Assembly (NCBI GenBank): GCA_029855935.1
Contig: JAGSHN010000017.1
Location: forward strand, 10,705 to 74,704
Reading direction: 5' to 3'
Source: Candidatus Thorarchaeota archaeon
GTDB lineage: Archaea > Asgardarchaeota > Thorarchaeia > Thorarchaeales > Thorarchaeaceae
DNA length: 64,000 nt
In this document: one piece after another, positions 1 to 17,224 of the stretch
How positions within the stretch are numbered: the first letter of the stretch is position 1
Layout: each line of letters begins with the position of its first letter
Program-made: the position numbers and the translations under genes
The notes under the pieces: model-generated
Database searches by the model: none
What the model saw: the letters and a program-made list of their open reading frames with translations, nothing else
What the model was told of the DNA's origin: nothing

Positions 1-706
1 GTCCCGTGGCGGCCAGCACCTGCCACCAGTTCTGATAGTTCTCGGCCATCAATGAGAACGAGAAGGTGCCGGTGAAGGCGTAGAGGACCAGAATGCCACC
101 GAGCATAAAGGCGTCACCGATGCGCGTGACAATGAAGGCCTTCGTACCGCACTGCGTGTTGTATTCGCCCTCGGTCTCATATTGGAGCAGTGGATTGGAG
201 TATTCAATGCCGTCAGGCTCCCTCTCCGGTGGATTTCTCTTGTCATTCCAGAAGCCGATCAGTCCGTAGGAACAGAAGCCCATTATCTCCCAGCCGATAA
301 AGGCGATGAGGAGGTTGTTGCTGATGACGAGTGTGAGCATCCCACCGCCAAAGACGAGCATCAGGAAGAAGAACCTGTCACGGTCCTCCTCACCAGCCAT
401 GTACTCTGTGGAGTAGACGTAGATGAGGAAGCACAGCGTGCTCGCGAGGACCGTCATGATGACGGACAGTGGGTCTAGGAGAACCTCGAAGTTCAGCCCG
501 AGCGACGGAATCCACGGCCAGCTGGTGGGACCCTTAGGAGAACCTATGTCGTAGAGCAGCGACCACGCGAGGATCATTGTGACGCCCATGAACAGCGCTG
601 GTGTCCAGTCTCGAAGACGGTCGCTGAAACGTCCAAATACGGGGACGAGCAGCGCACCCACGAAGGGCAGCACGAGGAGGAGATAATATGGTAGTCCGAA
701 CAGCAT
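1..706 (-). CDS. nuoL: Complex I proton-pumping subunit NuoL (5' part only)
   Basis: The first 235 residues of a NuoL/ND5-type antiporter-like membrane subunit are visible; the gene continues past the left edge. Translation from the ATG at 706-704 starts MLFGLPYYLLLVLPFVGALL and carries the family signature WEIMGFCSYGLIGFW, whose glutamate belongs to the proton-channel charge network of NuoL. Several hydrophobic helices are evident. It lies 13 bases after the nuoM stop on the same strand and so closes the visible part of the operon. NuoN is not in the window and would be expected further left. Family membership is clear; the C-terminal lateral helix of NuoL cannot be checked. Confidence 0.93.
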   Translation of the reverse strand, partial: MLFGLPYYLLLVLPFVGALLVPVFGRFSDRLRDWTPALFMGVTMILAWSLLYDIGSPKGPTSWPWIPSLGLNFEVLLDPLSVIMTVLASTLCFLIYVYSTEYMAGEEDRDRFFFLMLVFGGGMLTLVISNNLLIAFIGWEIMGFCSYGLIGFWNDKRNPPEREPDGIEYSNPLLQYETEGEYNTQCGTKAFIVTRIGDAFMLGGILVLYAFTGTFSFSLMAENYQNWWQVLAATG

Positions 707-719
707 CTCTTGGCTCACC

Positions 720-2231
720 TCACGGAACTATGTTCAACAGGCCCTGCGTGGCCCCGGCGATGACGTGTACGGCGACATCTGGAAAGACACCGAAGAACAC
801 AATCAGCGCACCGAGCAACACCATTGGAATTGTCATCGACCTCGGCGCGTCCCTCACCGACTCAAGGTTGGTCGGCAGCGGGCCAAGGAACACCTTCATC
901 ACGAAACGCAGCATATAGCCAGCACTGACGATTGTGCTGGATACGGCAAGAATAGACAGCACGAAGAACGGCATACTGCCAATTCCTGCAGGCCCGAGAA
1001 GAGCAGCCTGAAAGCCGCCATTGAACATCATCCACTCACTGGCAAATCCTGAGAGCGGTGGCACTCCAGCGATGCTGAACGCCCCAACAGCCGCTGTGAA
1101 TGCAGTTACCGGCATCCTGTTGGAGAGACCTCCCATCTCTTCGATGTTTCGAGTCCCGGTCTCGTGAATCACCGCGCCGGCGGTCATGAAGAGCAGCCCC
1201 TTTGAGAAGGCGTGATTGATGAGATGGAACAGACCGCCCTGCAGGCCGTACGAGGCCATTACACCGAGAGCGAACAGGACGTATCCCATCTGCGAGACAG
1301 ACGAATACGCCAGCAGCCTCTTGATGTCCTTCTGTGCAAGCGCCATCAGACCGCCATAGAACATCGTGAGAACACCCAGCACGCTCACCCAGAACGACAG
1401 GGCCTGCGCTGCGGCACCGAGCATGATCACTCCGAACCTGACGAGGGCGTATGCACCAGTCTCAATCATCGCACCTGACAGGAGTACGGACACTGGTGTC
1501 GGGGCCTCGGCGTGGACTGGCGGGAGCCACCAATGGATTGGAAACACCGCCATCTTGACGAGAAAGCCAGCTGCCAGGAGTATGAATATCAGCTTCATAG
1601 TGCTCAGAGCCATTTCTGATGTGAGGATCACACCGATGTCGGTCATTACAAAGGAGCCGGTGATGGCGTACAGTAGAGCGAATCCCGCAAGGATGGCCAG
1701 CGCACCTGACTGAGTGTAGAGCCAGAACTTCATCGCCGTGCGCTTGCGGGTCTCTGGAATGCCCCAGAACAGAATCAGGAAGTACGACGGGACGAGCATC
1801 AGCTCCCAAGCCATGAAGAACTCCACAAGGTTGGTCGCCAGTGTGACCCACTGCATACCCATTATGAAGAACAGAAGGTTGGAGAAGAATGTCCCTCTGT
1901 TCTCTGTGTGGCTCGTGTAGCCGATGGCATAGATCACGGAGAGAAAACCCAGGATAACAACTGCAAACGTGATTGGGAACGCAACGCCGTCGAGTAGAAG
2001 ACCAAAGCTGCCCAGCACTGAGGACCACTCGACGACCTCCATTATGGGCTCATTGAAGACGACTATGTGGTAGAATGACGGCAACATCAAGAGCATTGAC
2101 AGGCCGGAGAAGACGGCGGCTGCAGTGCCAGCACGTTGCTCCAATGCTCCACGAAAGATGTAGATGAACAGTGCGCCGAGGAACATCACTATCAGTGATA
2201 GTGACATCAATGAGAATCCACTCAACAGCAT
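720..2231 (-). CDS. nuoM: Complex I proton-pumping subunit NuoM
   Basis: 503 residues, about 14 hydrophobic helices, the usual NuoM/ND4 length. The helix-5 motif MAWELMLVPSYF holds the conserved glutamate that distinguishes NuoM-like subunits. The channel lysine lies in GFLVKMAVFPIHWWLP, followed by a second lysine region at LAQKDIKRLLAYSS and the histidine/lysine pair in INHAFSKGLLF. It translocates protons in the membrane arm when quinone is reduced. The start directly abuts the nuoI stop, so the two are almost certainly co-translated. NuoN is the alternative assignment, but the helix-5 motif favours NuoM. Confidence 0.93.
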   Translation of the reverse strand: MLLSGFSLMSLSLIVMFLGALFIYIFRGALEQRAGTAAAVFSGLSMLLMLPSFYHIVVFNEPIMEVVEWSSVLGSFGLLLDGVAFPITFAVVILGFLSVIYAIGYTSHTENRGTFFSNLLFFIMGMQWVTLATNLVEFFMAWELMLVPSYFLILFWGIPETRKRTAMKFWLYTQSGALAILAGFALLYAITGSFVMTDIGVILTSEMALSTMKLIFILLAAGFLVKMAVFPIHWWLPPVHAEAPTPVSVLLSGAMIETGAYALVRFGVIMLGAAAQALSFWVSVLGVLTMFYGGLMALAQKDIKRLLAYSSVSQMGYVLFALGVMASYGLQGGLFHLINHAFSKGLLFMTAGAVIHETGTRNIEEMGGLSNRMPVTAFTAAVGAFSIAGVPPLSGFASEWMMFNGGFQAALLGPAGIGSMPFFVLSILAVSSTIVSAGYMLRFVMKVFLGPLPTNLESVRDAPRSMTIPMVLLGALIVFFGVFPDVAVHVIAGATQGLLNIVP

Positions 2232-2663
2232 TCAACGAAACCTCCTGCCTCGCCATTCAAGCGGCTCGCGTTCCAGTGTCTCGATTCTCTCTGGGTCGTA
2301 GTGCAAGGCCTCACGTGACGGCTCGCTCAGGTCGACCACTGGAGTGTGGAACAGGGCATTGAACCGGCACGCCTCCACGCACAGGCCACAGAAGATGCAC
2401 CTCGTGTAGTCGAAGTAAAGGGCGGCGTCCTTCTCGTACTTGCGGTCGCTCTTGTCGATGCGGATGGCCACGACCGGGCACGCGCGGACGCACTGACCGC
2501 ACGCCGTACAGTTCTCTCGAATGTGTATGTGGCGGCCACGTGTGCGCTCCGGGTACTCGCGGTCCTCAAAGGGATAGAAGTACGTGAAGGGTCGTGAGAA
2601 CGTCTGACGCACGATGTGTTTCAGCACGCGAAAGATATCGCCCAGAACTCTAATCATTCCCAT
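2232..2663 (-). CDS. nuoI: Complex I ferredoxin-like subunit NuoI
   Basis: 143 residues with two 8Fe-ferredoxin motifs, CTACGQCVRACP and CIFCGLCVEACR, which bind clusters N6a and N6b that pass electrons towards N2 in NuoB. A longer reading frame opens at 2708 inside nuoH, but the ATG at 2663 is preferred: it sits 4 bases after the nuoH stop and has the strong ribosome-binding sequence GGAGGAGG about 8 bases upstream. The N-terminal helix (MIRVLGDIFRVLKHIVRQTF) is the usual amphipathic membrane-lying segment. All eight cysteines are present, so the peripheral arm has a complete path into NuoB even though no NuoEFG is seen. Confidence 0.95.
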   Translation of the reverse strand: MGMIRVLGDIFRVLKHIVRQTFSRPFTYFYPFEDREYPERTRGRHIHIRENCTACGQCVRACPVVAIRIDKSDRKYEKDAALYFDYTRCIFCGLCVEACRFNALFHTPVVDLSEPSREALHYDPERIETLEREPLEWRGRRFR

Positions 2664-2667
2664 CTCT

Positions 2668-3849
2668 CTATCCTCCTCCTGCGAGAATGCCAGCGAGCCC
2701 CGGCACATACGCCAGCACGAGCAGCGCGACTATGATGTTCAGCATTGACAGCGGGAGGAGATACCTCCAGCTGTACTTTACTATCTGGTCCTGTCGAATC
2801 CTGTAGAAGGACGACGTAACGATGATCATCCCGAAGAGGACAACAAGGAACTTGAGGAAGAAGTTCAGGAACGGCGGAAAGCCGGGAACGCCGTACTCGC
2901 CGCCGAAGAAGAGCGCCACGATAAGCGCGGAGTAGAGGACCTGCTTGGCGAACTCGGCAAAGTAGGTGAGCGTGAAGTAGACTCCCGAGAGCTCGGTCCT
3001 CCAGCCGAATATGACCTCCGAGTCCGCCACAGGGGCGTCAAAGGGCACCAACCCTATGCTGATGACTGCGGAGACGAGGAAGGTGACAAAGCAGACGGGC
3101 AGCAGAACGACGTACCAGAGGTGCGTCTGGGCCTGCGATATCTGCAGCACGCTGAGCGAGCCTGCAAGAAGAGCGGGACCAACTGAGGACACTATGAGCG
3201 GTATCTCGGCCGCGAACTGGTTACTTGCCGCCCGAAATCCACCGACTAGGGTGTACTTCGAGCCGCTTATCCAGCCCGTCAGCAAAGAGATGACAGGCAC
3301 GGCCGTCAGGAACGCGAACACGAGCACGAGGCTGACGGAGAGGTCGGTTATCACCCACTCGCTGGTCCACGGTACAAAGGCGAAGGGCGTGAGCACGACT
3401 AGCAGTAGGAAGGACGGGAGAAGCCGATACATCCACCGCTTCGCTCCACGCGGGATGATTATCTCCTTCGAAATGAGCTTGATTGCGTCGGCGAAGATCT
3501 GAAGGCCTCCGTACTTTCCGATGTGGAAAGGACCACGACGAGCCTGTACACGGCCCCACACCTTTCGTGTGAACCACACGTCAAAGATTATGAGCATCAG
3601 GACGAAGACGAGACCGGGGAAGACTATTGCCTTGAACAGCAGCAGCCAGTTGTCTAGCGCGAGATTCCACGCCCAGACAAAGACACCCCAAGCCCAGTTG
3701 AACACGCCTACTGCCAGCGTGTATACCCAGACAATGATACCATGGATCCAGTCCGGGATTCCACGCAGCCAGCCAATGATGTCAATGTTGTCGAACAGTT
3801 GCAACAGCAAGGCGTTCAATGTCATCCCTCCGTTCACCGGTCCCACCAT
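2668..3849 (-). CDS. nuoH: Complex I membrane subunit NuoH
   Basis: 393 residues, multi-spanning, with NuoH/ND1 motifs RVQARRGPFHIGKYGGLQ and PFDAPVADSEVIFGW from the loops that line the quinone chamber. It anchors the peripheral arm. The protein is longer than the usual 320-340 residues because of about 60 extra N-terminal residues holding a tryptophan-rich hydrophobic helix (residues about 38-58). The start is ambiguous: ATG 3849 overlaps nuoD by 16 bases, GTG 3837 would give a 4-base GTGA overlap like others in this operon, and ATG 3825 lies just after the nuoD stop. Residue numbers here use 3849. Confidence 0.92.
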   Translation of the reverse strand: MVGPVNGGMTLNALLLQLFDNIDIIGWLRGIPDWIHGIIVWVYTLAVGVFNWAWGVFVWAWNLALDNWLLLFKAIVFPGLVFVLMLIIFDVWFTRKVWGRVQARRGPFHIGKYGGLQIFADAIKLISKEIIIPRGAKRWMYRLLPSFLLLVVLTPFAFVPWTSEWVITDLSVSLVLVFAFLTAVPVISLLTGWISGSKYTLVGGFRAASNQFAAEIPLIVSSVGPALLAGSLSVLQISQAQTHLWYVVLLPVCFVTFLVSAVISIGLVPFDAPVADSEVIFGWRTELSGVYFTLTYFAEFAKQVLYSALIVALFFGGEYGVPGFPPFLNFFLKFLVVLFGMIIVTSSFYRIRQDQIVKYSWRYLLPLSMLNIIVALLVLAYVPGLAGILAGGG

Positions 3850-4970
3850 CCTGGGTACGGGTCCAGACTGCCGAACACGACAATGAAGTCAGCAAACGTC
3901 GACCCGGGGACCAGATGCTTCAGGCTGTAGTAGGAGGCGAAGCACGGCCCGCGAATCTTCGCTCGGTACGGTGTCTGCGCCTTCTCTGTCGTCTTGAGCC
4001 AGACGGTCGTCACTCCCCGTGTCCCCTCGACCCGGCCATAGGCCTCTCCGGCCGGGAGACGGTTCGTCTTGGCCCGCGCCTTGGGGTCGACGATAGGCCC
4101 CTCAGGTATCTGCGGCAGCAGCTGCCGGATTATGTTGATGGATGTCTCGACCTCAAGGAATCTCTGGACCATCCTGTCGTACGCATCGCTCTGACCGGGA
4201 TGGTCCGGATTATCAACAACGGGCACCTCCCAGTCGACAAGGTCATACGCCAAGTTGAGGTCAGGCCAGTCCTTGCGAAGATCCATAGGCACGCCACAGG
4301 CCTTGATGTTCGGTCCACTGAGGCCCCACCTGAGAGCATCCTCGTAGCTGAATAGTGCAATGCCCTTGGTCCGCATTCTGAAGGTCGGGCTGCGGAGAAG
4401 CATGTCTTTGAACTTTGGCAGATGCTGTTCCAGTCGCTGTAGCGCCCTGTCAAGCTTCTTGAGGACCTTCTCATTGAAGTCGTACCTGACGCCACCGGGA
4501 GTGCTGAAGGAGACTGCGTGCCGTGAGCCGGTCAGCTCCTCGAACGTGTCCAGGAAGAACTCTCGGTCCACCCATGGCCATAGTGTCATAGCAAACAGAC
4601 CGAGCTCTGCCGAGAACTGACCCCACCAGAACTGTAGCGAGTGTATCCTGCTGGCCTCCATCATTATCGTTCTGAGGACCTTCGCACGTTCGGGCACCTC
4701 CACGCCCGCGATCTGCTCCACTGCGCTGATGTACGGGTACTCGGCAAGAAACGCCTCAAGCATACACATCCTCTCAAGTACGAGAGGACCCTGTTTGAAC
4801 GTACGAAACTCAAGGACCTTCTCTGCGGAACGATGGAAATAGCCAGCGTGAGGGTCACACTCCACAATGAAGTCGCCCACCACCGTGAGCTTGGCGGCCC
4901 AACCGTGGGCCGACACATGCTGGGGCCCGAACCACATCTCAACAGCTTCGTCGCGTATGTCGGGGCTCAT
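3834..4970 (-). CDS. nuoD: Complex I 49-kDa-type subunit NuoD
   Basis: 378 residues of the NuoD/Nqo4 family, forming the quinone chamber with NuoB and NuoH. The quinone-site histidine is present in GPQHVSAHG (H22, matching Thermus Nqo4 H38). The partner tyrosine (Nqo4 Y87) is replaced: the stretch RMCMLEAF (67-74) aligns without gaps to Nqo4 RMDYLHSF, so Met70 is at the tyrosine position and Cys69 at the preceding aspartate. The C-terminus SLDPYPGWWDR lacks the CxxC of NiFe hydrogenases, as expected for complex I. It overlaps nuoC by 4 bases. Family call is firm; quinone chemistry may be unusual. Confidence 0.95.
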   Translation of the reverse strand: MSPDIRDEAVEMWFGPQHVSAHGWAAKLTVVGDFIVECDPHAGYFHRSAEKVLEFRTFKQGPLVLERMCMLEAFLAEYPYISAVEQIAGVEVPERAKVLRTIMMEASRIHSLQFWWGQFSAELGLFAMTLWPWVDREFFLDTFEELTGSRHAVSFSTPGGVRYDFNEKVLKKLDRALQRLEQHLPKFKDMLLRSPTFRMRTKGIALFSYEDALRWGLSGPNIKACGVPMDLRKDWPDLNLAYDLVDWEVPVVDNPDHPGQSDAYDRMVQRFLEVETSINIIRQLLPQIPEGPIVDPKARAKTNRLPAGEAYGRVEGTRGVTTVWLKTTEKAQTPYRAKIRGPCFASYYSLKHLVPGSTFADFIVVFGSLDPYPGWWDR

Positions 4971-5491
4971 TCCTTGTTCGCCTCCTGTCTGCGTGGTCTT
5001 GGCTGCGGTAGTCCAGACTCGGCCAGCCTCCTCCGGTCTGGCTGGAAGCTCTTCCTGAGCGGATACTTCCCGACCAGCTCATCAGGCAGAAGCAGTGGTC
5101 TCAGGTCGGGATGGCCTCTGAAGCCGATCCCGAACATCTCGTGAGTCTCCCGTTCGTGCCACTCAAGGCCTGGGAATATGTCACAGACCGAGTCAATCTC
5201 CGGCTCCTCACCCTCCAGCTCGACCCTGAGCTGCACAAGTACTCTGATATCGTGTGACCAGAAGTAGTAGATAAGCTGATAGCGATCATCCTGTAGGTCG
5301 ACGCCGAACATAGACTCAGGTAGAGCGTGAGGGAGCAGCTCATCGACGGACTTGACGACATCACGAATCATCCCTGCAGGTACTGTGAGTTCTGCGGTCT
5401 GGCCCTCGATCTTGTGGGCCTCAACACCGGGATGACGACGCATCAGCTCGGCCGCTACCTCAGACGGTGTAGTCGGTGGCGCCAACCTCAC
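4967..5491 (-). CDS. nuoC: Complex I 30-kDa-type subunit NuoC
   Basis: 174 residues with the NuoC signature WHERETHEMFGIGFRGHPDL followed by PLLLPDE and PLRKSF. NuoC is a structural subunit of the connecting module that packs against NuoD. NuoC and NuoD are separate genes here, not fused as in some bacteria. The start overlaps the nuoK stop by 4 bases and the stop overlaps the nuoD start by 4, so translation is probably coupled across K-C-D. Confidence 0.94.
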   Translation of the reverse strand: MRLAPPTTPSEVAAELMRRHPGVEAHKIEGQTAELTVPAGMIRDVVKSVDELLPHALPESMFGVDLQDDRYQLIYYFWSHDIRVLVQLRVELEGEEPEIDSVCDIFPGLEWHERETHEMFGIGFRGHPDLRPLLLPDELVGKYPLRKSFQPDRRRLAESGLPQPRPRRQEANKE

Positions 5492-5805
5492 GACACCTCC
5501 TCCGTTCTAGTGACCGGGATCCCCAGGTCCACGGTCCTGTATCTGCGATGGTAGAGAAGCATCAGGACCATTGCAAGGGCGGTCTCGGCTGCGGCCACTG
5601 CGATGACTAGGATGACAAGCGCCTGGGCCGTGAATGTGAAGAATGGTCCGTACAACGCCAGCGCAATGAGGGCGATGTTGACCCCATTGGCCATGATCTC
5701 GGCACTGATCAGTATCCTGATGAGATTGCGCTTGGAGACCATCCCGTAGGCACCCATACCAATCAGTATGAGGGCCAGCACCATGTACCAGCTCAGCGGA
5801 ACCAT
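5488..5805 (-). CDS. nuoK: Complex I membrane subunit NuoK
   Basis: 105 residues, three hydrophobic helices, the standard NuoK/ND4L size. Both membrane glutamates needed for proton transfer along the central axis are visible, E36 in ILISAEIMANGVN and E74 in AAAETALAMVLML. It abuts nuoJ with no gap and overlaps nuoC by 4 bases. Its place upstream of nuoC is unusual: J and K occupy the slot where nuoB is commonly found. Confidence 0.95.
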   Translation of the reverse strand: MVPLSWYMVLALILIGMGAYGMVSKRNLIRILISAEIMANGVNIALIALALYGPFFTFTAQALVILVIAVAAAETALAMVLMLLYHRRYRTVDLGIPVTRTEEVS

Positions 5806-6459
5806 CTACTCAACCTCCTTCTCCTCCTTAACGTCACGTGCCTCAAGGACTGGCATCCCAGATGTGGCGCTCTCGGGCTCACTCTCCTCAGGGATCGGGA
5901 GGGAGAAGTCTTCCGTTCTCGGACGAAGCTGTTCCTCCTTCTCCATCCTTATGATCGCGACAGAACCGACTAGCCCAACGAAGAGAAGCATAGCAATTAT
6001 CTCGAGATAGACAGCGTGCGTTCCCCAGAGCCACTCAGCAAGTCCCTCGAGACTCTGCGACAACGGGATGTGTTCAGGCGGGATGCTCTCCTGCCATGGA
6101 AACAGCAGCGCGATGAGCGCTGATATGACTACAACCGAGATGGAGAGCACCAAGCCCACCTTCCGCATTCGGGGTGAATGTAGCACTTCCAGTGTCGAGT
6201 CCTGTGCCCTTGGGATGAGTAGTACACCAAAGATGATCAGTGCTGTTATGCCACCAGTGTAGATGGCTATCTGGAGCCCTGCGACGAACGGGGCTTCTAG
6301 CAGGATGAATATCCCTGCAACCCCCGTGGCCATAAAGCCGAAGAAGAACGCAGCATAGACGATGTCCCTATGCTCGAGCGCCAAGTAGGCAAGGACTATC
6401 ACCACACCCGCGATGAGCAGGAACTCGATATTCTCGAAGAGTATCTCAGCCTCTTGCAT
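5806..6459 (-). CDS. nuoJ: Complex I membrane subunit NuoJ
   Basis: 217 residues from ATG 6459, five predicted helices plus a charged C-terminal tail of about 45 residues. The helix-3 region with the pi-bulge appears in VAGLQIAIYTGGITALIIFG. The reading frame is open to 6513, but 6459 is chosen because GGAGG lies about 9 bases upstream, overlapping the nuoA stop codon, and the family begins at this point. The frame ends immediately before nuoK. The acidic tail (EEKEVE end) is longer than in typical NuoJ and has no assigned role. Confidence 0.92.
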   Translation of the reverse strand: MQEAEILFENIEFLLIAGVVIVLAYLALEHRDIVYAAFFFGFMATGVAGIFILLEAPFVAGLQIAIYTGGITALIIFGVLLIPRAQDSTLEVLHSPRMRKVGLVLSISVVVISALIALLFPWQESIPPEHIPLSQSLEGLAEWLWGTHAVYLEIIAMLLFVGLVGSVAIIRMEKEEQLRPRTEDFSLPIPEESEPESATSGMPVLEARDVKEEKEVE

Positions 6460-6466
6460 CGTGAAC

Positions 6467-6901
6467 TCATCCCTCCGAATGCAACCCCGTGGCCTGCTCC
6501 TTGGCAGCCTCATAGAGGGCTACCACCTCGGGACCCGTCATCTGCGCCTTTGGTAGAATCTTCAGAACAAACATCACAGCAGCCATTATGACCGCAGCAA
6601 AGACTACGACCTGCCACACAACGAACACCGAGGTCCTCAGTGCTGAGACCGCATACAGCCACATGAAAGCGCCCATCACGTCCACTACGAGAAACAGTAC
6701 CGTGTAGATGATGTAGCTGTACGGAAAGCTGATCCGAGCCGGACCGAGAGGCTCCTCGCCACATTCGTAGGTGGATGTCTTCTCCGAGTTCTGGAGGACA
6801 TGCGGACGCAGGACCCACGATGCAAGCAGCATCACGATTACGAGTGCTGTGACAAGGCCCATCCATAAGAGTAGAGGCACAAAGTCGATGAACAGTCGCA
6901 C
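6467..6901 (-). CDS. nuoA: Complex I membrane subunit NuoA, first gene of operon
   Basis: 144 residues with three helices and the NuoA/ND3 loop motif STYECGEEPLGPARISF, whose cysteine lies in the flexible loop near the quinone site. The start is a GTG at 6901-6899, with GGAG about 10 bases upstream. It is the promoter-proximal gene of the A-J-K-C-D-H-I-M-L operon; nothing coding is recognisable for about 850 bases upstream. In most complex I operons nuoB follows nuoA; here nuoJ does, 7 bases downstream. Confidence 0.94.
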   Translation of the reverse strand: MRLFIDFVPLLLWMGLVTALVIVMLLASWVLRPHVLQNSEKTSTYECGEEPLGPARISFPYSYIIYTVLFLVVDVMGAFMWLYAVSALRTSVFVVWQVVVFAAVIMAAVMFVLKILPKAQMTGPEVVALYEAAKEQATGLHSEG

Positions 6902-7759: not shown

Positions 7760-8512
7760 ATGACACAAGCAGAACGCAATGAGGATCCGGTGAAGATCGC
7801 CAAGAGGATACTGGATGCGCTGAGGAGAGAACCGTCTCTCCGAGAGGAGTTCCTTGAGATCATAGCCCCATCGACGTACGTCAGGCGTGACGAGCTGACA
7901 CAGGTCCTTGAGGAGATTCGACAACTCCGTATAGAGAGCAACAAACGCTTCGAGGCAATGGACAGACGATTCGAGGCAATGGACAGACGATTCGAGGCGA
8001 TGCAGAGACAGATGGACGAACGCTTCGAGGCAATGGACAGACGATTCGAGGCAATGCAGGAAGTCCTAGTTGTGATGCAGGCTGACATTGCGGACCTGTC
8101 GGGCAAGTACGGCAAGCGGGCTGAGGACGCTGTCCGGAGACTTCTCTCAAGAGTACTGGAGGCGGAGGGAATCGAGACTGCAAGGATTGAGCACATCCAG
8201 GTCAAGGACAGGGATGGCTCTGTCTTGGGCAAGGGCTACACGACGGACATCGACATCTACTACAAGGGCAGGGAGACATGGATAATAGAGTACAAGGCCC
8301 GTGCGAAGAGGGAGGACATCATTCATCTGCACCTGGTGGCGAGGCTTCTGAGGGAGCAGTACAGAATCAATCCCGACAGGGTGCTGATGGTCACTCTGAA
8401 CATAGCAGATGAGGCGCGAGTGCTGGCTGAGGACATGGACATAGAGGTGCTTCAGGGGAGGAGCACGAATCCCACACCACTACCGCCGCCTGCAACGGAC
8501 GGCCCAGCGTGA
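7760..8512 (+). CDS. Coiled-coil PD-(D/E)XK nuclease-like protein
   Basis: 250 residues. Residues 1-55 are helical; about 60-105 form a coiled coil of nearly identical heptads (RFEAMDR, RFEAMQR); the C-terminal half resembles the restriction-endonuclease-like fold, with YTTDIDIYY (Asp) and WIIEYKARA (E-x-K) as the apparent metal-binding core. The layout matches the DUF3782-type proteins found in archaea and cyanobacteria, whose role is not established. It is a lone gene with its own leaderless promoter. A proline-rich tail ends the protein. The nuclease fold is an inference from motif spacing; enzymatic activity is unknown. Confidence 0.8.
   Translation: MTQAERNEDPVKIAKRILDALRREPSLREEFLEIIAPSTYVRRDELTQVLEEIRQLRIESNKRFEAMDRRFEAMDRRFEAMQRQMDERFEAMDRRFEAMQEVLVVMQADIADLSGKYGKRAEDAVRRLLSRVLEAEGIETARIEHIQVKDRDGSVLGKGYTTDIDIYYKGRETWIIEYKARAKREDIIHLHLVARLLREQYRINPDRVLMVTLNIADEARVLAEDMDIEVLQGRSTNPTPLPPPATDGPA
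7946..8059 (+). repeat. In-gene 21-base tandem repeats encoding heptads
   Basis: Five near-identical 21-base units of the type cgattcgaggcaatggacag encode RFEAMDR/RFEAMQR, interrupted once by a divergent unit (QMDE). Identity at DNA level, including synonymous positions, indicates recent expansion or slippage that would lengthen the coiled coil in steps of one heptad. Confidence 0.85.
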
Positions 8513-8639: not shown

Positions 8640-9098
8640 AGAGTCGCGTTTATTGGTTGTGTAGAGTGCGGATGACATGCGGCTAGTGTGCCATTGCCAG
8701 GGGCTGAAGCACAGCAGATACAATCATGGGTAGCACGTACCCCTGCGTCCCCGCATCCGGCGGTCCAGACAATGGCTCCGAAACACCTGTCCCTCTGATG
8801 CCAGCCACTCAGACGCAAGGTCCTGCCGCGCGGAGTAGTGACCTTATAGCGGAATGCCTCCCGCTAGCGCAGGACCATTTCCATTTCCATTTCCCTCAGT
8901 TGTCCTCCCAAATGCTCTAAGCAGGCTATCGACTGTTCTCGCAGTTCCCATCCGCTGCTGGCCGCCAGCACTGGAATCGGTGCAGTTCGCTATGGGACCC
9001 GTGGTCGCCATTGTGTTATGGGGCGCACTCAGCCACATCGCTTGGAGAAAGTACTGTGCAGGACGTCCCAATAATAGGGGGACCACAACGACGGACAG

Positions 9099-9108
9099 AT
9101 TAAATAGG
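9099..9108 (+). promoter_or_regulatory. TATA-like box for the gene at 9154
   Basis: ATTAAATAGG, 46-55 bases before the ATG at 9154, implying a leader of about 25 bases. Confidence 0.4.
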
Positions 9109-9153
9109 TGCATCAATCTTCGACTGTCCAGTGGTGACCGAGAAGTGTCGTCG

Positions 9154-9495
9154 ATGGACAGAAGGCGCTACACCTACTACGTCATATTGTTTCTCGGACT
9201 TGTCCTAGTGAGCCTCTATTTTCTAGTACTCTATCAATGGGTGGGACTGAGCAGTCTTGCCTCGCTATTGCTTGTTGGCAGTGGTGGCCTGTTCATCCTG
9301 CTCGCACTCGTTGCCCCCTTTGGCCGCTCTAGACCTGCAAGACTCGGACTCACTGCCTTGTGCGGTCTCATTGCTGGAACTCACGCATATCTCGATATCA
9401 TATTGCTGCAGGGTCAGATGGGGACTGTGATGTTCATATGGATTGGCCTGGGCACAATGCTCGTCACTGCACCACTGCGATGGCTCAAAGAGTGA
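9154..9495 (+). CDS. Small four-helix membrane protein, unknown
   Basis: 113 residues, mostly hydrophobic, with about four membrane segments separated by short charged turns (FGRSRPARLG between helices 2 and 3). No family recognised. Start chosen at ATG 9154 because a TATA-like box precedes it at a suitable distance; an in-frame GTG at 9145 is possible. It converges on the complex I accessory membrane gene at 9547, but has its own promoter, so a link with respiration is only positional. Confidence 0.6.
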   Translation: MDRRRYTYYVILFLGLVLVSLYFLVLYQWVGLSSLASLLLVGSGGLFILLALVAPFGRSRPARLGLTALCGLIAGTHAYLDIILLQGQMGTVMFIWIGLGTMLVTAPLRWLKE

Positions 9496-9546: not shown

Positions 9547-10116
9547 CTACTCGGATTCGTCCCTCTTGCCCGTCTCGGCAGTCGACTCCTCAGTCCTCTC
9601 TATAGGCTCTCTCGCTTCTCCCTCTTTCTCACTGCCTCTCGTCTCCTCCGGCTCCTCCACGAACACCTCAACAGCCGAACGCACTGCTGGGCGTCCAGCG
9701 TACGAGAGTCTTGAGTAGTCAAGTAGGCCTGGCGTGACCGCATCCTCAAGAGGTGGTATCATTGCCAGACCGCCTGCCGTGACCAGAGCGCCGATGATCC
9801 CCCAGAAGACGAGTCCAAGGCCACCGCCCCACTCGGCCGGCACAGACATAGAAAAGATTGCGTAGAACAGTGATGCCACAACGGAGAAGCCGAACATCGT
9901 CGTCTTGGCCTTGCCGCGAACTGGTCGAAGGTATCCCACGTAGAGGAAGACCATCACCGGTGGCAGACCCAGCACGGGGAGGAGCACTGCGGTCAGGATG
10001 TTGAGCGTGATCGTACCAGTCAGCCACAGATAGCCAAAGCTGAAGTAGAACGCGCCCAGTATGGCCATTCCAAGCCAGACCATGCAGTAGTAGTCGGTGT
10101 CCTCTCGTAGATGCAT
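9547..10116 (-). CDS. Membrane protein downstream of the GlcD-NuoB fusion
   Basis: 189 residues: four or five hydrophobic segments (about 12-115) and then a highly charged, Glu/Arg-rich tail of about 50 residues that should be cytoplasmic. No family recognised. Its start lies 22 bases after the stop of the GlcD-NuoB fusion on the same strand, so the two are probably one transcript. A role as membrane anchor or assembly partner for the fused subunit is a reasonable guess from position, but nothing in the sequence proves it. Confidence 0.75.
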   Translation of the reverse strand: MHLREDTDYYCMVWLGMAILGAFYFSFGYLWLTGTITLNILTAVLLPVLGLPPVMVFLYVGYLRPVRGKAKTTMFGFSVVASLFYAIFSMSVPAEWGGGLGLVFWGIIGALVTAGGLAMIPPLEDAVTPGLLDYSRLSYAGRPAVRSAVEVFVEEPEETRGSEKEGEAREPIERTEESTAETGKRDESE

Positions 10117-10138: not shown

Positions 10139-12079
10139 CTATCTCAGGAAGCCCATGGCATCCTGGTTCTCGTATTTCATCTGCCAGTGCGTCGTGCCAG
10201 CACGGATCTTGTTCTGAAGTATCAGATGGGCTCGTATGAAGTCTGACGGCTTCGGCGGGCACCCCGGTAGATAGACATCCACAGGAACGACCTCCTCGGG
10301 GTCCTTGACAAGAGAGTAGCCGTCCCAGAACATGCCGCCGCTCGCAGCACACTGACCGAACGATATCACAAACTTTGGCTCAGGCATCTGCTCGTAGATT
10401 CGGCGCAGCCTGGGCGCCATCTTCTTCGTCAGCGAACCGGATATCCACAGCACATCAGTCTGACGAGGACCAAACAGCGGAAGCATACCGAACCGCTCAG
10501 TGTCCCACCGTGGAGCCACAGCGGCGGACCCCTCGACCATGCAGCAGCCCAGACCGAACTGTACTGGCCAGGGACTGTGAGCACGACCCCATCGGAGAAG
10601 CCACTTGATCGGTGGCAGGTTCTGCAGCCACTTCAACACGATTGGCCCCATCCGGCCGAAGCCGTTCCTCAGCAGATCGTAGCCAAGCCACATGAAGTAC
10701 TTGCCGACTCTGAGTACAAGAGGCAGCCAGTAGGCAAACACCTTCCCCGGGTTCGCCACCTCATTGGGGTCGAACTTGAGCTTGGCGGCACGAATCCGTG
10801 CAAGGCGCCTCTTGCCGAAGTACTGTGGAGCATAGTTCGCCAGCCAGATGCCGGTCGAATGAACGTGACCCCCGTGCCTCTGTGCAATCTTGAAGACCAC
10901 GAAGCTCTGAACCCAAGATAGCATGAAGCCGAACCGCCGCTCGTCCTCAAGGAAGTAGCCCATTAGCGTGACCCCGTTCTTCGATGTCACGTAGCCGTCC
11001 ATGCCTGCCCGCGCTGAGGCCTGCTCGAACTGAAAGTCGTCGAGGATGAGCATCAGATTCTCCAATGGCGCAAAGGCCTGTCCGACGACCAGCGACGGGC
11101 CGAGCTTCTTGATCTTCATTGGATAGAAGCGCTGCTCCCACTCGTGTTCCGCAACGTGCTCGTCGTAGACTTTGCCCTTCAGCTCCTTCGCCACCCTGCG
11201 TACAACCTCGAGGCCCTCCTCGGTCTCCTCATCGGAACCATCGTACGCAAAGAGCGCGACACAGTGATGAACGGGATAGGGATAGGGGCCCGGGCCCTCC
11301 CAGATCTCCTTCTTGAGGTCGACGTACTTGCTCTCCTTGAACTTGATTGTGTGTGGGAGCGGACCCTCCTCCAGAATCTTCTCGATTGCAAATGTCATCA
11401 GGTAGTTCTCAGGAAAGCTGACGACGATGCACTTGATGGGGGTGAGAGCTTTGACCTTGAGCGTGACCTTGGTGATTATCCCCAGAATGCCCTCGGTGTC
11501 GCAGAACAGGTCGGTATCGCGGCTGCGCACAATTCGCCCATTGGGGAGGACCACCTCGACCTCCTCGACGTTCTCGTTGATGTTGCCGTACTTCAGCGAG
11601 CCGATACCGTCACCACCCTGAGCCACCCAACCTCCAACCGTGGCCGAGATTCCCGATGAGGGATAGGTGCGCAGGTCCAGTCCCTGACGATTGAGCTCAA
11701 ACTGCAGGTGCGCCCAGGAGATTCCGGGCTCCACTGTGACCGTCAGGCCCTCGGGGTCGACACTCAACACGCGATCCATCCTACGCATATCAACAATGAT
11801 GCCGCCCTTTCTGGGAATCGCACCGCCGTAGCCTGAGGTGCCAGCGCCACGTGGGACAATTGGCACGCGCTCCTCATTGGCGAACTTGAAGAGCGCGACA
11901 ATCTCGTCCACCGACTCGGGCTGCACAAGTGCATCAGGTTTGTTGTTCATCAGCCAGCCGACCTGCTTGGGCAGTGAACCTACATCCATACTGTGGATGT
12001 GAAGCTCGTACTTCTCTGTGATCAGCCGGTCACCGAATATCGCTTTCAGGCGCTCCAATTGATCCTTCTTCAGTCCCAT
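10139..12079 (-). CDS. GlcD-type FAD oxidase fused to complex I NuoB
   Basis: 646 residues in one uninterrupted frame. Residues 45-210 are the FAD-binding domain of the GlcD/D-lactate dehydrogenase family, with PRGAGTSGYGGAIP at 77-90. Residues 210-450 are the matching C-terminal oxidase domain, ending with the family hallmark FDPNEVANPGKVF. A hydrophobic/amphipathic linker (about 450-490) leads into a complete NuoB: all four ligands of cluster N2 are present, C512-C513 (GLGCCMVE), C577 (FGQCAAS) and C607 (LPGCPPKP). The canonical HxGDGNxH motif of 2-hydroxyacid oxidases is replaced by HGGHVHSTG (402-410), so the substrate is uncertain. As the only NuoB in view, the protein should put a flavin site into complex I. 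Confidence 0.93.
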   Translation of the reverse strand: MGLKKDQLERLKAIFGDRLITEKYELHIHSMDVGSLPKQVGWLMNNKPDALVQPESVDEIVALFKFANEERVPIVPRGAGTSGYGGAIPRKGGIIVDMRRMDRVLSVDPEGLTVTVEPGISWAHLQFELNRQGLDLRTYPSSGISATVGGWVAQGGDGIGSLKYGNINENVEEVEVVLPNGRIVRSRDTDLFCDTEGILGIITKVTLKVKALTPIKCIVVSFPENYLMTFAIEKILEEGPLPHTIKFKESKYVDLKKEIWEGPGPYPYPVHHCVALFAYDGSDEETEEGLEVVRRVAKELKGKVYDEHVAEHEWEQRFYPMKIKKLGPSLVVGQAFAPLENLMLILDDFQFEQASARAGMDGYVTSKNGVTLMGYFLEDERRFGFMLSWVQSFVVFKIAQRHGGHVHSTGIWLANYAPQYFGKRRLARIRAAKLKFDPNEVANPGKVFAYWLPLVLRVGKYFMWLGYDLLRNGFGRMGPIVLKWLQNLPPIKWLLRWGRAHSPWPVQFGLGCCMVEGSAAVAPRWDTERFGMLPLFGPRQTDVLWISGSLTKKMAPRLRRIYEQMPEPKFVISFGQCAASGGMFWDGYSLVKDPEEVVPVDVYLPGCPPKPSDFIRAHLILQNKIRAGTTHWQMKYENQDAMGFLR

Positions 12080-12303: not shown

Positions 12304-13590
12304 GTGGGCAAGGGCCGCTTTCCCCGGTCAAAGAACGACAACAGGTCAAAGAGGCAGGCCCCAATGCACTTCGAGATGCTTGAACAGTACAACCTTCAGG
12401 ACATGGCCTTCATCTGTGCCCAGTGCAGCTTCTGTCAGGTGGGTCACGGTGCGTGCCCGACCTACAAGGTCAAGCGCCGGGACAGCTACTCAGGCAAGGG
12501 CAAGATGATCATCGCACGAGCGCTACTTCAGGGTAGGCTCTCACCCAGCGAGGCACTGGAGGGTCTTCGCGATGCCGTGTTCGGATGCACCCTCTGTGGC
12601 GGATGTGAGGAGGTGTGTCAAGTAGACATACCCTTTGTCCAGATCTACCAACTTCTGCGTGGTGAGTTCCTCAAGCTGAACCTCTGGCCGGAGCAGCTAA
12701 AGATGATGAAGAAGACCCTGATCAAGACACGGAACGTGCAGGGCCAGCCGAACATCGACCGTGTGGAGGGATGGTCATACTGGCATCCCGATGAGGATGC
12801 GCTCTTGGAGAAAGTGGGGCAGCCTGCGGAGACCGGGTTCTTCGTCGGATGCGGTTCATCATTCCGCGGTATTGCCATTCAGGCGACGATTGCCACAACT
12901 CTGATTCTCGATGACGCCGGCATCGAATACACGCTTCTTGGAGAGGACGAGTGGTGTTGCGGAGCCCCGCTGATCATGACTGGCGACTTCGAGGGCGCGA
13001 AGGAGTTCGCTCTACACAACATCGAGGAGTTCCGCAAGCTCGGTGTGAAGCGGATTGTGACAAATTGTCCAGGCTGCTACAAGATGTGGCATCACGAGTA
13101 TCACCAGCTTCTCGGCATTGATCACGAATTTGAGATCGTGTACGGTCCCGTACTCTACGCCAAGCTAGTAGAGGAGGGCAAGCTGGAGGGCAAGATTAAG
13201 GACCTCCCGGTCTCGGTCACATTCCACGACCCGTGCGATGCTGGGCGCAACAGTGGCATCTATGAGGAGCCCAGAGTTGTACTGAAGAACATACCCGGAC
13301 TCAGATTTGAGGAGCTTCCTCACAACCGGGAGAACTCGTACTGCTGCGGTTCAGGAGGTGTTCTGAGAGCACAGGACGAGGAGTTCTGTCTGAAGATAAA
13401 CGAGCTGAAAGTACGCGACATCGAGCAGACGGATGCGGACTGGGTGATCTCCGCCTGCCCGTCATGTGTGGACTTCATCAACACAGGACTACCAGAGGCC
13501 GGGTCTGAGAAGAAGTCCAAGGACCTCGCCGTGCTGCTTGCAGAGGCTCTCGGACATACCTGGGACGGACTCGACGACGTCTACGGCTGA
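12304..13590 (+). CDS. GlcF/HdrD-type Fe-S protein with two CCG domains
   Basis: 428 residues. Two [4Fe-4S] motifs, C38-C41-C44-C51 and C95-C98-C101-C105, are followed by two CCG domains: C183, C218-C219, C255, C258 and C311, C347-C348, C385, C388. This is the architecture of GlcF (glycolate oxidase), LutA/LldE relatives and HdrD, which relay electrons between an FAD dehydrogenase and a carrier, or hold a noncubane cluster acting on disulfides. It is divergent from the GlcD-NuoB fusion; since GlcD works with GlcF, the two proteins probably form one complex. The start is GTG 12304 or possibly ATG 12364. The 3' end overlaps the convergent menA-like gene by 10 bases. Confidence 0.9.
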   Translation: MGKGRFPRSKNDNRSKRQAPMHFEMLEQYNLQDMAFICAQCSFCQVGHGACPTYKVKRRDSYSGKGKMIIARALLQGRLSPSEALEGLRDAVFGCTLCGGCEEVCQVDIPFVQIYQLLRGEFLKLNLWPEQLKMMKKTLIKTRNVQGQPNIDRVEGWSYWHPDEDALLEKVGQPAETGFFVGCGSSFRGIAIQATIATTLILDDAGIEYTLLGEDEWCCGAPLIMTGDFEGAKEFALHNIEEFRKLGVKRIVTNCPGCYKMWHHEYHQLLGIDHEFEIVYGPVLYAKLVEEGKLEGKIKDLPVSVTFHDPCDAGRNSGIYEEPRVVLKNIPGLRFEELPHNRENSYCCGSGGVLRAQDEEFCLKINELKVRDIEQTDADWVISACPSCVDFINTGLPEAGSEKKSKDLAVLLAEALGHTWDGLDDVYG

Positions 13591-14627
13591 GGCGCCGGGG
13601 GAGGTCGCAGCAGAGTCCTGACTGCCAGCCCTACAAAGACGAGTAGCATCACAGCAACGAGAACGTATACCAGTAGTGGCGTCCTCATGTCAATCACAAC
13701 ATAGCCAACCGTCAGGTACAGTCCCGTCAACAGATGGGTCATAATCGTCCCGGCGTTCGCAGGTATCATTCTCAGGGGCTCATCGTAATGTCGTCGTGCA
13801 GTCCTGATTGCAATGGCCGCGATAGGAACCGTGAGCAGACCATAGAGCTGCGTCCACGGAACAAGGCCAACGAACGTGAACAACACTATGACAGCATAGG
13901 TGACGATCATCAGACCCGCATACACAGCTGATGCTCGCCTCCTACCCAGACGCACTACAGCCGTGTACTTGCCAGCAGCCCTGTCGCCCTCCATATCTGG
14001 AAACTCATTGATGAACAACACCAGAGAGATGAGTAGTGCCACCGGGAGCGAGGCGAAGACTGGTTCCCAGTCAAGGGCCTGTGTCTGCACGAAGAAGGCT
14101 CCAAGCGTCATCAGGATGCCAAAGTTCAGCCCGATGAATATCTCTCCAATCCCCCGACTCACAAGCCTGACTGGGGGTGCTGTGTAGAAGAAACCAGATG
14201 CTGCACCAATCAGCCCAAGGACAACTATCACCCAACCGAGGTGGAGATAGAGGTAGAAGCCGATTGCCACGGCAATGCCGAAGAAGACGAATGACCCCGC
14301 GAGGACCTCGCCGGGACTCAACAGGCCCTCCTGTATCACCCGGCTGCCTCCACTGAAGGGTCGAATGAAACCCTCGTTGACGTTATCGGCGCCACTCTTG
14401 TAGTCGAAGTAGTCATTGGCGATGTTTGCGCCGAGATGCAGACAGGCGGCCGCCACAAGAGTGAGGAAGAAAAACCAGAGGTTCAGGCCGTGCGTCCGCT
14501 CCCAAGCAATTGCGGTTCCTAGCAGCACGGGAACGAGTGACGCCGTCAAGAAACTCAACCTCATCTCACGTATCCAGATTCGAAGCCTCCCGGGCTTCGG
14601 CTCTACTGGGGCTCTCTCGCCAGTCAT
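13581..14627 (-). CDS. menA: UbiA-family prenyltransferase, MenA-like
   Basis: 348 residues from ATG 14627, about eight or nine membrane helices. The two aspartate-rich motifs that bind prenyl diphosphate and Mg2+ are present: NDYFDYKSGAD (N71-D72..D75) and NEFPDMEGD (D211..D215). This pattern and length fit 1,4-dihydroxy-2-naphthoate prenyltransferase, the membrane step of menaquinone synthesis. Other UbiA members such as geranylgeranylglyceryl-phosphate transferases are the alternative. A longer frame to 14696 is rejected because a TATA-like box lies at 14656-14664, inside it. A MenA next to a complex I module fits a menaquinone-based chain. Confidence 0.85.
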   Translation of the reverse strand: MTGERAPVEPKPGRLRIWIREMRLSFLTASLVPVLLGTAIAWERTHGLNLWFFFLTLVAAACLHLGANIANDYFDYKSGADNVNEGFIRPFSGGSRVIQEGLLSPGEVLAGSFVFFGIAVAIGFYLYLHLGWVIVVLGLIGAASGFFYTAPPVRLVSRGIGEIFIGLNFGILMTLGAFFVQTQALDWEPVFASLPVALLISLVLFINEFPDMEGDRAAGKYTAVVRLGRRRASAVYAGLMIVTYAVIVLFTFVGLVPWTQLYGLLTVPIAAIAIRTARRHYDEPLRMIPANAGTIMTHLLTGLYLTVGYVVIDMRTPLLVYVLVAVMLLVFVGLAVRTLLRPPPAPQP

Positions 14628-14655
14628 TGTGGGTCGACGGAGCAGCAGGCGGGAA

Positions 14656-14664
14656 GAATAAAAG
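14656..14664 (-). promoter_or_regulatory. TATA-like box of the menA-like gene
   Basis: Minus strand CTTTTATTC, 29-37 bases before ATG 14627; transcription would begin only a few bases before the start codon. Confidence 0.5.
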
Positions 14665-14784
14665 ATTGATGGAACAGGGCCGGCATAGTAACGCATTCGG
14701 GGTCACACCGCGCACGATCCCCTGGGCCTACACCAAGAGACAATGCCCTTCAGGGCGGATTCCACATTGTCCTCAGGACAAGTA

Positions 14785-14793
14785 CTTTAAGAG
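14785..14793 (+). promoter_or_regulatory. TATA-like box of the prenyl diphosphate synthase gene
   Basis: CTTTAAGAG, 48-56 bases before ATG 14841, leaving a leader of about 25 bases. Confidence 0.4.
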
Positions 14794-14840
14794 GCGGTCG
14801 TCACGTAGCACTGTCGCCTGTTATCCGGAGAGGTAGCGTC

Positions 14841-15908
14841 ATGTCCGGCAGAGAGATGTCGACAGACAGGGATTCTCGCACCGAGTGCGACCAGCGCGAC
14901 ACGAGTCTCGCTGCCGGTTCCACAGGCCTGCTCACAATCGATGATCTCACCGCCGACGAGGAGTTCGGAGCAATAATATCGGCTATCAACACGGCGATGG
15001 ACGAGTTTGTTCAGAACCTATACGGAGAGCCTGCCTCACTCTATGAGGCGGCCAGACACCTGCTTGTTGCCGGGGGCAAGAGGCTCCGCTCTCTGATTGT
15101 CCTCTTGGCGACACAGGCGGTCGGAGGTGACATTGAGGACGCATTGCCGTTCGCTGTAGCAATGGAGCTGGTGCAGACCGCCAGCCTTCTTCACGATGAC
15201 GTGATTGACGACGACGTCCTACGGCGAGGTGTCGAGACCGCACACAGAAAGTTCGGGACCAGAATTGCAATCCTCGCGGGAGACCTTCTCGTTGCAGAGG
15301 CGATGAGCCTGATTGGAGAGAGGGCGACTCCAGAGCTCCTCGCCATGATAGGAAAGGCGGGGATAATGCTGTGTGAGGGCGAGGCATCCGACTTGCTGAT
15401 GGAGATCACTGATAGCGAGTCGGTCAGTGTGAGACGCTATCTGGCAATGGCGGAGAGAAAGACCGCATCACTTCTGCGGGTAGCGGCAGGTGTCGGGGCA
15501 GTGGTCGGAGGTGGTACGACAGAGCAGCGCGACGCTCTGATGGAGTACGCTCGGAAGATTGGTCTGGCATTCCAGATTCGTGACGATGTTCTGAATCTGA
15601 CATCAACTCCCGATGTGACAGGCAAGTCGGTCCTCTCAGACCTGAAGTGGAAGACCAGCAACTACGTGGTGATCCACTGCCTCGAACACTGCAGTCAGCC
15701 TGTTCGCGAGGAGTGCCTGAGGGCACTCGGATCCAACTCGTATGAGGACGTTCTCCGTGTCCTGGAGGAGTCCGGTTCCATAGCGCACGCGAATGAGGTG
15801 GCGTGGCGCTTGGCACGTGAGGCAAAGGCCGTCCTGAGAGGCGCAGACCTGCAGAAGAAACATCTTCTTGAGAGGCTCGCTGACTTTGTCGTCCTCAGGG
15901 CGCACTAG
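14841..15908 (+). CDS. Polyprenyl (geranylgeranyl-type) diphosphate synthase
   Basis: 355 residues of the trans-isoprenyl diphosphate synthase family. The first aspartate-rich motif is LLHDDVIDDDVLRRG (D119, D120, D123) and the second is QIRDDVLN; the basic substrate site is GGKRLRSL near residue 79. It condenses isopentenyl diphosphate units to make the prenyl chain for archaeal lipids or a quinone tail. The residues just before the first motif are small, which usually goes with C20 or longer products, but chain length cannot be fixed by eye. About 35 extra polar N-terminal residues precede the catalytic fold; ATG 14856 is an alternative start. Confidence 0.9.
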   Translation: MSGREMSTDRDSRTECDQRDTSLAAGSTGLLTIDDLTADEEFGAIISAINTAMDEFVQNLYGEPASLYEAARHLLVAGGKRLRSLIVLLATQAVGGDIEDALPFAVAMELVQTASLLHDDVIDDDVLRRGVETAHRKFGTRIAILAGDLLVAEAMSLIGERATPELLAMIGKAGIMLCEGEASDLLMEITDSESVSVRRYLAMAERKTASLLRVAAGVGAVVGGGTTEQRDALMEYARKIGLAFQIRDDVLNLTSTPDVTGKSVLSDLKWKTSNYVVIHCLEHCSQPVREECLRALGSNSYEDVLRVLEESGSIAHANEVAWRLAREAKAVLRGADLQKKHLLERLADFVVLRAH

Positions 15909-15923
15909 GAACGGGACATGGTC

Positions 15924-17123
15924 TCAGAGAAGAAACATCAAAGCGCGGAGAAGAGTGCGGGAGGCAATGTCGACCGGTAGCGGGAGCCGGCAACGTATAA
16001 GTTGTTCCAGCAGCCTGGTCCCAGCCAGACGCATGGTGACCTCCGTGACCGCATCCGTCGTCATCGCCTTGTCGGCAATGTGTCTGATGGACAGGGCTGT
16101 GTAGAGCTCACGGCCGAACTCCTGTTTCCACCCCTTCTCGTAGGCGCTCAGTGGGGTCCCGAACTCAAGATGGTTGACGATACTCTCGGCGGCTATCTCA
16201 CCGCCAATCAGCGCTGTGGGGATGCCACCGCCATTGGAGGCCATCACGTGACCTGCGGCGTCGCCGACAAGCAGTACACCTTCGTCCGAGTATGTTCGCT
16301 CGACGGGTCCATCAACAGGGATGAGTGCACCAATCTGTCGGACTACACGACCGCCCCTCAGACGTCGGGCCACAAAGGTATGGCTCAGGATGAACCGGTG
16401 CAGGTAGCGACGGGGTGGAACGCCCGGAGCGGCAAAGGCGGGGCGCAGCCCAAGTCCCACATTGGCCTCAGAGGGGCCCCTCGGAATCACCCAAGCGTAC
16501 CCGCCTGGGGCCACAGAAGAGCCAAAGAACATTTCGACGACAGAGACGTCTGTGTCGACATCCGCAAGAGTCACCGAGGCGGATTGGCTCAGTTGGCTTG
16601 AGGGGTCTTTGTACTCCACCCCGATTGAGCGTGCCACCACTGAGACCGGTCCATCAGCGCCCACGACTACGCGTCCTCTTATCTCGCTGATACCGTCGGG
16701 TGTACGCACCAGGACAGTATTGTCCCTGTTCCTCCTGACAACCGTGTTGCACAGTCTCAGCTCGGCACCAGCATCCTCAGCAACCGTGACGAGAAATGGG
16801 TCGAACCTCGCGCGGTCGATGATATTGGCGGAGAACCGGAACTCGTAGCGTCGGCCTCGAGGCGAGATGAGTCGGATCGTGCGCGTCCTGTCGAGAATAA
16901 GGTGGCGTGGGACATCCGTCAGTCTGACGCCTCTTGGCGAGCGGGGGAACAGGTCCCCCATCTCAGATGGAGTGGGTAGCAGCTCGCCACAAAGGACAGG
17001 CTCGCCGAGGGCTCTCCTTCGCTCAAGAAGGATCGTAGAGAGACCACGTCCTGCTGTACCAGCAGCCACAGTGGCGCCTGCTGGCCCTGCTCCAACAACA
17101 ACGACATCAAACGTCTCAGTCAC
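15924..17123 (-). CDS. Geranylgeranyl reductase family flavoprotein
   Basis: 399 residues with an N-terminal FAD-binding Rossmann motif VVVGAGPAGATVAA, the middle motif VVVGADGPVSVVAR and the late FAD-contact motif VLLVGDAAGHVMASNGGGI. This is the geranylgeranyl reductase family, which saturates prenyl chains of archaeal lipids or menaquinone. Its 3' end is 15 bases from that of the convergent prenyl diphosphate synthase gene. Residues 260-360 follow the family pattern with a substrate-cavity helix. Whether the substrate is membrane lipid or quinone is not decided by sequence; the MenA neighbour makes quinone worth considering. Confidence 0.88.
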   Translation of the reverse strand: MTETFDVVVVGAGPAGATVAAGTAGRGLSTILLERRRALGEPVLCGELLPTPSEMGDLFPRSPRGVRLTDVPRHLILDRTRTIRLISPRGRRYEFRFSANIIDRARFDPFLVTVAEDAGAELRLCNTVVRRNRDNTVLVRTPDGISEIRGRVVVGADGPVSVVARSIGVEYKDPSSQLSQSASVTLADVDTDVSVVEMFFGSSVAPGGYAWVIPRGPSEANVGLGLRPAFAAPGVPPRRYLHRFILSHTFVARRLRGGRVVRQIGALIPVDGPVERTYSDEGVLLVGDAAGHVMASNGGGIPTALIGGEIAAESIVNHLEFGTPLSAYEKGWKQEFGRELYTALSIRHIADKAMTTDAVTEVTMRLAGTRLLEQLIRCRLPLPVDIASRTLLRALMFLL

Positions 17124-17224
17124 CCGGCATGCCTCCGGTCCCTGTGCGAGTCGTCAAAGAGCAGGTCAATATTAGTTATGCTGATTGGGATACGGCCGCC
17201 CAACCGTCGGCGAAGCTCGCCAAC

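Follow-up and report, generated by a model that had tools for sequence, protein, structure and literature searches.

Results

Complex I operon

The window, by which we mean the whole 64,000-nucleotide stretch of DNA analysed (G000:C31:10705-74704), belongs to a Thorarchaeia genome that is 97.3% complete, and its left end is taken up by a minus-strand complex I operon in the order fusion, 189-aa membrane protein, nuoA, J, K, C, D, H, I, an extra NuoM-type gene, nuoL, M and N (Table 1). The leading gene joins a GlcD-type FAD domain to NuoB in one 646-residue frame. The sequence-only reading had described this gene without saying on which strand it lies; the open reading frame and its Pfam and NCBIfam matches confirm it, on the minus strand, and the plus strand of the same interval holds several stops in frame 1.

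Table 1. Genes and protein segments of the complex I locus and its neighbours (positions are those of the window)
Feature	Position	Strand	Basis or remarks
nuoL (start)	2..718	-	nuoL, nuoM and nuoN extend left of the window (L068:6176-11422)
Extra NuoM-type antiporter subunit (M1)	720..2231	-	TIGR01972 over cut-off
nuoI	2232..2708	-	Two CxxCxxCxxxC motifs (N6a, N6b)
nuoH	2668..3849	-	Operon position and conservation in L013, L026
nuoD	3834..4970	-	Without NiFe cysteines; His38 counterpart retained, Met70 in the place of Tyr87
nuoC	4967..5491	-	PF00329
nuoK	5488..5805	-	PF00420
nuoJ	5806..6513	-	PF00499
nuoA	6467..6901	-	PF00507
Membrane protein orf213	8854..9495	+	Position conserved, opposite strand; homologues in L013, L026
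Small membrane protein orf189	9547..10116	-	189 aa, 3-4 TM; next gene after the fusion
Fusion ORF	10139..12079	-	646 codons, ATG start
NuoB domain (fusion residues 492-646)	10139..10606	-	TIGR01957 over cut-off; alignment with stand-alone NuoB
Junction (fusion residues 448-491)	10607..10738	-	Amphipathic helices that lead into the N-terminal helix of NuoB
GlcD-type FAD domain (fusion residues 1-447)	10739..12079	-	Pfam and Foldseek
CCG (HdrD-TfrB-like) iron-sulfur protein	12304..13590	+	Divergent from the fusion
MenA-family prenyltransferase	13581..14696	-	TIGR00751, 117.8 bits (cut-off 102.15)
Polyprenyl diphosphate synthase	14841..15908	+	
Geranylgeranyl reductase family protein	15924..17123	-	TIGR02032 over cut-off

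No genes for NuoE, NuoF or NuoG were found in the operon and no NuoF (PF01512) in the whole genome, so that the NuoEFG input module of the canonical NADH:quinone enzyme is missing. The NuoD of the window is without the two NiFe CxxC motifs, which assigns it to complex I and not to the group 4 hydrogenases; the corresponding motifs RICGIC and DPCYSC are retained in a hydrogenase module on another contig of this genome (C8), a group 4 [NiFe]-hydrogenase set A-B-C-D-H with both NiFe CxxC motifs and no adjoining antiporter genes (L069:4994-8777). A second, stand-alone nuoB serving the complex had been named beforehand as the finding that would count against the fusion, and none exists among the PF01058 matches: the five others in the genome were all assigned to modules of [NiFe]-hydrogenases (groups 4, 3b and 3c), which by these assignments leaves the fusion as the only true complex I NuoB of the genome. 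Within the family, NuoD at 73-100% identity occurs only in genera g1-g9, i.e., those with the fusion, and genera g10-g13 have a hydrogenase-like NuoD at 30-34% identity or none; complex I and the fusion go together. Genera g10, g12 and g13 have neither complex I, nor the fusion, nor the CCG partner described below.

The 189-aa membrane protein adjoins the fusion in 12/12 loci checked and has no Pfam match; a shared origin with the small membrane partners of other GlcD-CCG pairs was considered and dropped, as the comparison gave no signal. The antiporter-like subunits of Thorarchaeial complex I number four, the extra NuoM-type one being encoded after nuoI, and the operon of Asgard family f27 (L116:1-3647) holds two such extra antiporter genes besides nuoL, M and N. 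A gene for a DUF3782/PD-(D/E)XK coiled-coil protein interrupts the operon of the window on the opposite strand (7760-8512); the equivalent gap in L013 is small and holds no such gene. Away from the locus, a solitary FpoF-like protein with two N-terminal 4Fe-4S motifs and an FrhB domain (L121:1432-2514) could deliver electrons of F420H2 to ferredoxin or NuoI.

Structure and distribution of the fusion

Pfam places FAD_binding_4 at fusion residues 48-185 (3e-43), FAD-oxidase_C at 218-447 (2.6e-12) and Oxidored_q6 at 513-617 (5.6e-24), and the NuoB part scores 175.4 bits against the NCBIfam model nuoB_fam (TIGR01957), whose curated cut-off is 142.7. The N2 ligands C512, C513, C577 and C607 are all there, as first claimed, when the sequence is aligned with stand-alone NuoB. 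The fold of the FAD domain lies close to those of mLDHD and LctD (Foldseek TM 0.81-0.84). In the AF2 model this domain is good and the NuoB part has a pLDDT below 50, probably because the alignment contained only close NuoB relatives; junction helices are predicted, with low confidence, at residues 451-475, 477-485 and 489-495. The maximum of combined hydrophobic moment and hydrophobicity for the whole protein falls in the windows starting at residues 441-453. The 44 residues of the junction show no insertion or deletion in 23 homologues, and dN/dS between close pairs (junction approximately 0.01-0.18, GlcD 0.02-0.10, NuoB 0.01-0.04) indicates purifying selection on all three segments, the junction included.

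In a scan of approximately 85,000 species genomes, the fusion was found at full length and 74-81% identity in Thorarchaeota, on over 20 independent contigs, one of them the closed chromosome CP070761.1 (L032); two contigs labelled Lokiarchaeota group within the Thorarchaeota fusion clade. The remaining relatives have the FAD part only and are all bacterial, the distribution outside Asgard being that given by this pattern-based scan. The proteome search proposed in the sequence-only reading, extended over 227 Asgard genomes, returned the full-length fusion from 29 of them, in nine genera (g1-g9) of a single Thorarchaeia family, that of the window, together with two additional copies interrupted by contig ends; it was not found in the other Asgard families listed among these genomes.

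An assembly join, a read-through or a pseudogene fusion without biological product can therefore be set aside as having practically no chance of being correct: the same fusion recurs across the nine genera and on a closed chromosome, its junction is ungapped, and all three segments are under purifying selection. An internal start yielding a separate NuoB was likewise rejected, since the candidate Met codons (M463 and M475) vary among homologues.

The CCG partner and related pairs

The CCG protein has complete CCG motifs at residues 183-258 and 311-388 and a Fer4_8 domain at 38-109, so that by its motifs it would be counted as HdrD-type, a type recognised by two complete CCG motifs and a ferredoxin-like dicluster. 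Its closest models are TfrB, LdhH and GlpC, and it passed the equivalog cut-off of none. Genera g1-g9 and g11 have the gene; g10, g12 and g13 do not. In g11 (G216), complex I is gone and an unfused 498-aa GlcD is retained together with the CCG protein; this GlcD is sister to all fusions, with a support of only 85/85, and the tail of the protein, FPPLKWI, agrees with the fusion at the point where the NuoB N-terminal helix begins, a possible remnant of a NuoB since lost. Across genera the CCG gene follows the GlcD domain, as the partner of the FAD domain.

Outside this family, f27 has an unfused GlcD-CCG pair right after nuoL-M-N, in which GlcD carries a C-terminal membrane helix and complex I has its own nuoB, and the fused GlcD-CCG proteins of Coriobacteriia and Carboxydocella are relatives as well. 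Further GlcD-CCG pairs with small membrane proteins occur near the nuo locus in several Thorarchaeia. Arrays of such pairs (L118:4625-19445, L119:7099-11935, L120:3102-17629), the first two of which share a contig with the fusion, include small membrane proteins, one of them weakly DUF2231-like, and an amine-oxidase-like flavoprotein. The third is adjoined by a multihaem cytochrome c with Cytochrom_C552, C7 and C554 matches (L120:212-1555).

Catalytic motifs, quinone site and prenyl genes

The HxGDGNxH and GEHG motifs, which bind metal and substrate in 2-hydroxyacid dehydrogenases, are both replaced throughout the FAD subfamily of the fusion, and the FAD domain reaches 154.1 bits against the glycolate oxidase GlcD equivalog (TIGR00387), far below its cut-off of 567.9. 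The canonical quinone site calls for both His38 and Tyr87; in NuoD the equivalent of the former is kept, and the latter is replaced by Met in all aligned sequences of Thorarchaeia. In 47 genomes, neither MqnA/D of the futalosine pathway nor a MenD over cut-off was found. The prenyltransferase, polyprenyl synthase and geranylgeranyl reductase genes (13581-17123) adjoin the CCG gene despite this lack of futalosine and MenD genes in the family, and a prenylated carrier may still arise by an unrecognised route. Beyond them (17129-21354), two paralogous genes in tandem encode large secreted proteins that are beta-helix-like and have a membrane anchor at the C-terminus.

Discussion

The N2 cluster in NuoB is the last one before quinone, at the high-potential end of the chain and the foot of the peripheral arm, and NADH or F420H2 enters complex I at the far tip, via NuoI, NuoG or FpoF. 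Because N2 sits on the quinone side and the tether consists of amphipathic helices, a flavin attached to NuoB is more likely to sit near the membrane, or on the exit side, than on the input side. We tentatively propose, at somewhat less than an even chance, a ferredoxin-oxidising headless (EFG-less) complex I that exchanges electrons at its N2 end with a tethered FAD-CCG module. In this view, the quinone-side end of the complex would have had an FAD dehydrogenase built onto it covalently, a membrane-associated one of the type found in GlcD/HdrD pairs; low-potential electrons, from reduced ferredoxin or perhaps from F420H2 through a detached FpoF-like protein, would be exchanged with NuoI and run along N6a, N6b and N2, driving the four antiporter-like subunits, and at the membrane end N2 would exchange with the tethered FAD and the CCG protein, directly or via a lipid carrier in a shared pocket. 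The whole would amount to an ion-pumping ferredoxin:(FAD-CCG substrate) oxidoreductase, in which the forward direction would oxidise ferredoxin and reduce an acceptor on the CCG side, and the reverse would use the ion gradient to push substrate electrons uphill to ferredoxin. The path, its direction, the donor and acceptor, and the binding of the CCG protein to the fusion are what we infer from the gene content and motifs.

The loss of the hydroxyacid motifs, the Met in NuoD and the lack of MqnA/D and MenD lead us to favour such an exchange, with ferredoxin at NuoI, over ordinary quinone reduction, and a NuoI that keeps both cluster motifs in a genome without NuoF is in line with it. So are a fusion that is the genome's only true NuoB and goes with complex I throughout the family, a CCG partner that accompanies the GlcD domain and has the two complete motifs of HdrB/HdrD-type proteins, the unfused pair beside nuoL-M-N in f27, and the published precedents from headless Fpo. 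Against it stand the prenyl genes beside GlcD and CCG and the preserved His38 equivalent, and also genus g11, where GlcD and CCG persist although complex I is gone, so that the pair works alone; a quinone-like carrier of an unrecognised kind is possible. A bolder form of the proposal, in which no free quinone is used, N2 electrons leave or enter through the built-in flavin to a heterodisulfide-reductase-like CCG protein and a ferredoxin:disulfide-type reaction drives the pumping, seems to us rather improbable.

That the pair can stand by itself in g11 also speaks for a looser arrangement, in which the GlcD-CCG pair forms a dehydrogenase of its own, one that transfers electrons to or from a lipid-soluble carrier also used by complex I, and the fusion would merely fix the stoichiometry and channel the carrier, with no flavin in the electron path of complex I. 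The additional pairs beside small membrane proteins in Thorarchaeia, the membrane helix of the f27 GlcD and the adjoining genes for MenA and geranylgeranyl reductase point the same way. However, no known menaquinone head-group pathway was recognised in the 47 genomes, the quinone-site Tyr of NuoD is replaced, and a junction conserved so rigidly and without gaps is more than a plain tether needs; we consider this arrangement less probable, though a serious alternative. The sequence-only reading had instead taken the FAD domain for the electron input, replacing the NADH or F420 module and passing the electrons of a substrate via N2 (or NuoI) to quinone, coupled to ion pumping. The covalent joint of flavin and N2 subunit that it described is real, and the lack of an NADH module is supported by the operon without EFG and the genome without PF01512; the missing NuoF and the closeness of the fold to D-lactate dehydrogenases and LctD would suit such a role. 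The input role itself is doubtful: NuoB belongs to the quinone side of the cluster chain, the FAD domain has neither HxGDGNxH nor GEHG, the quinone-site Tyr is lost and, judging from textbook potentials, typical hydroxyacid donors would be too near quinone to drive four antiporter-like subunits. As for the replacement of F420, the FpoF-like FrhB protein encoded elsewhere could still feed NuoI. Altogether, we regard an input function of the flavin as unlikely.

Asgard archaea are relatives of the eukaryotes, and our results suggest that the respiratory complex I of these Thorarchaeia works with a flavin partner built into it and not with the usual NADH module. That the flavin unit and the N2 subunit are parts of one machine finds natural evidence in their covalent joint, which is fixed in nine genera; the joint also supplies a single polypeptide on which to test direct electron transfer between complex I and HdrD/GlcD. 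The fusion has a bearing, too, on energy conservation in Asgard archaea and on whether complex I can work without quinone. Transfer from headless complex I to HdrD/GlcD has been proposed before, for methanogens and other archaea, and in the portions of the literature searched no physical link is described.

Compared with bacterial and mitochondrial complex I, the Thorarchaeial enzyme shares a NuoB (Nqo6/PSST) above the family cut-off with the four N2 ligands, and the subunits AJKCDHI with antiporters, but differs in its N-terminal FAD domain, the absence of EFG, the change of Tyr87 to Met and the extra NuoM-type subunit. With GlcD/GlcF, LctD-EtfAB and the YdiJ-type GlcD-CCG proteins the fusion has in common the FAD_binding_4 and FAD-oxidase_C fold and a CCG partner, whereas, unlike in the D-2-hydroxyacid dehydrogenases, its FAD domain is without HxGDGNxH and GEHG and is joined to NuoB instead of CCG.

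The nearest parallel, which the sequence-only reading left out together with the CCG partner, is the published link of GlcD/HdrD with headless Fpo-like complexes. Headless Fpo-like complexes are thought to accept electrons from ferredoxin (PMC7374477, PMC9478090), that of Methanomassiliicoccales has been proposed to pass them directly to HdrD (PMC7374477), Fpo-associated GlcD/HdrD has been reported for Methanomethylicia, Bathyarchaeia and Korarchaeia (PMC10667645, PMC8407382, PMC6783470), and for the complex I of Sifarchaeia and Jordarchaeia, which is without NuoEFG, the use of ferredoxin has been proposed (PMC9723677). No GlcD-NuoB fusion is mentioned in the covered portions of the headless Fpo and Asgard complex I literature; the statement that no fusion of a flavin domain with the N2 subunit had been described holds for the literature searched. 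The locus studied here brings together an EFG/FpoF-less core with GlcD and HdrD-like genes, and by the accounts covered the likeness consists in that core and an HdrD-like CCG protein, with GlcD in several lineages, and is one of gene association. The same accounts describe separate proteins, mostly in settings of methane metabolism, whereas in Thorarchaeia GlcD is covalently part of NuoB. By this analogy, the fusion would be a covalent and new form of the already described association of GlcD-HdrD with headless Fpo/Nuo.
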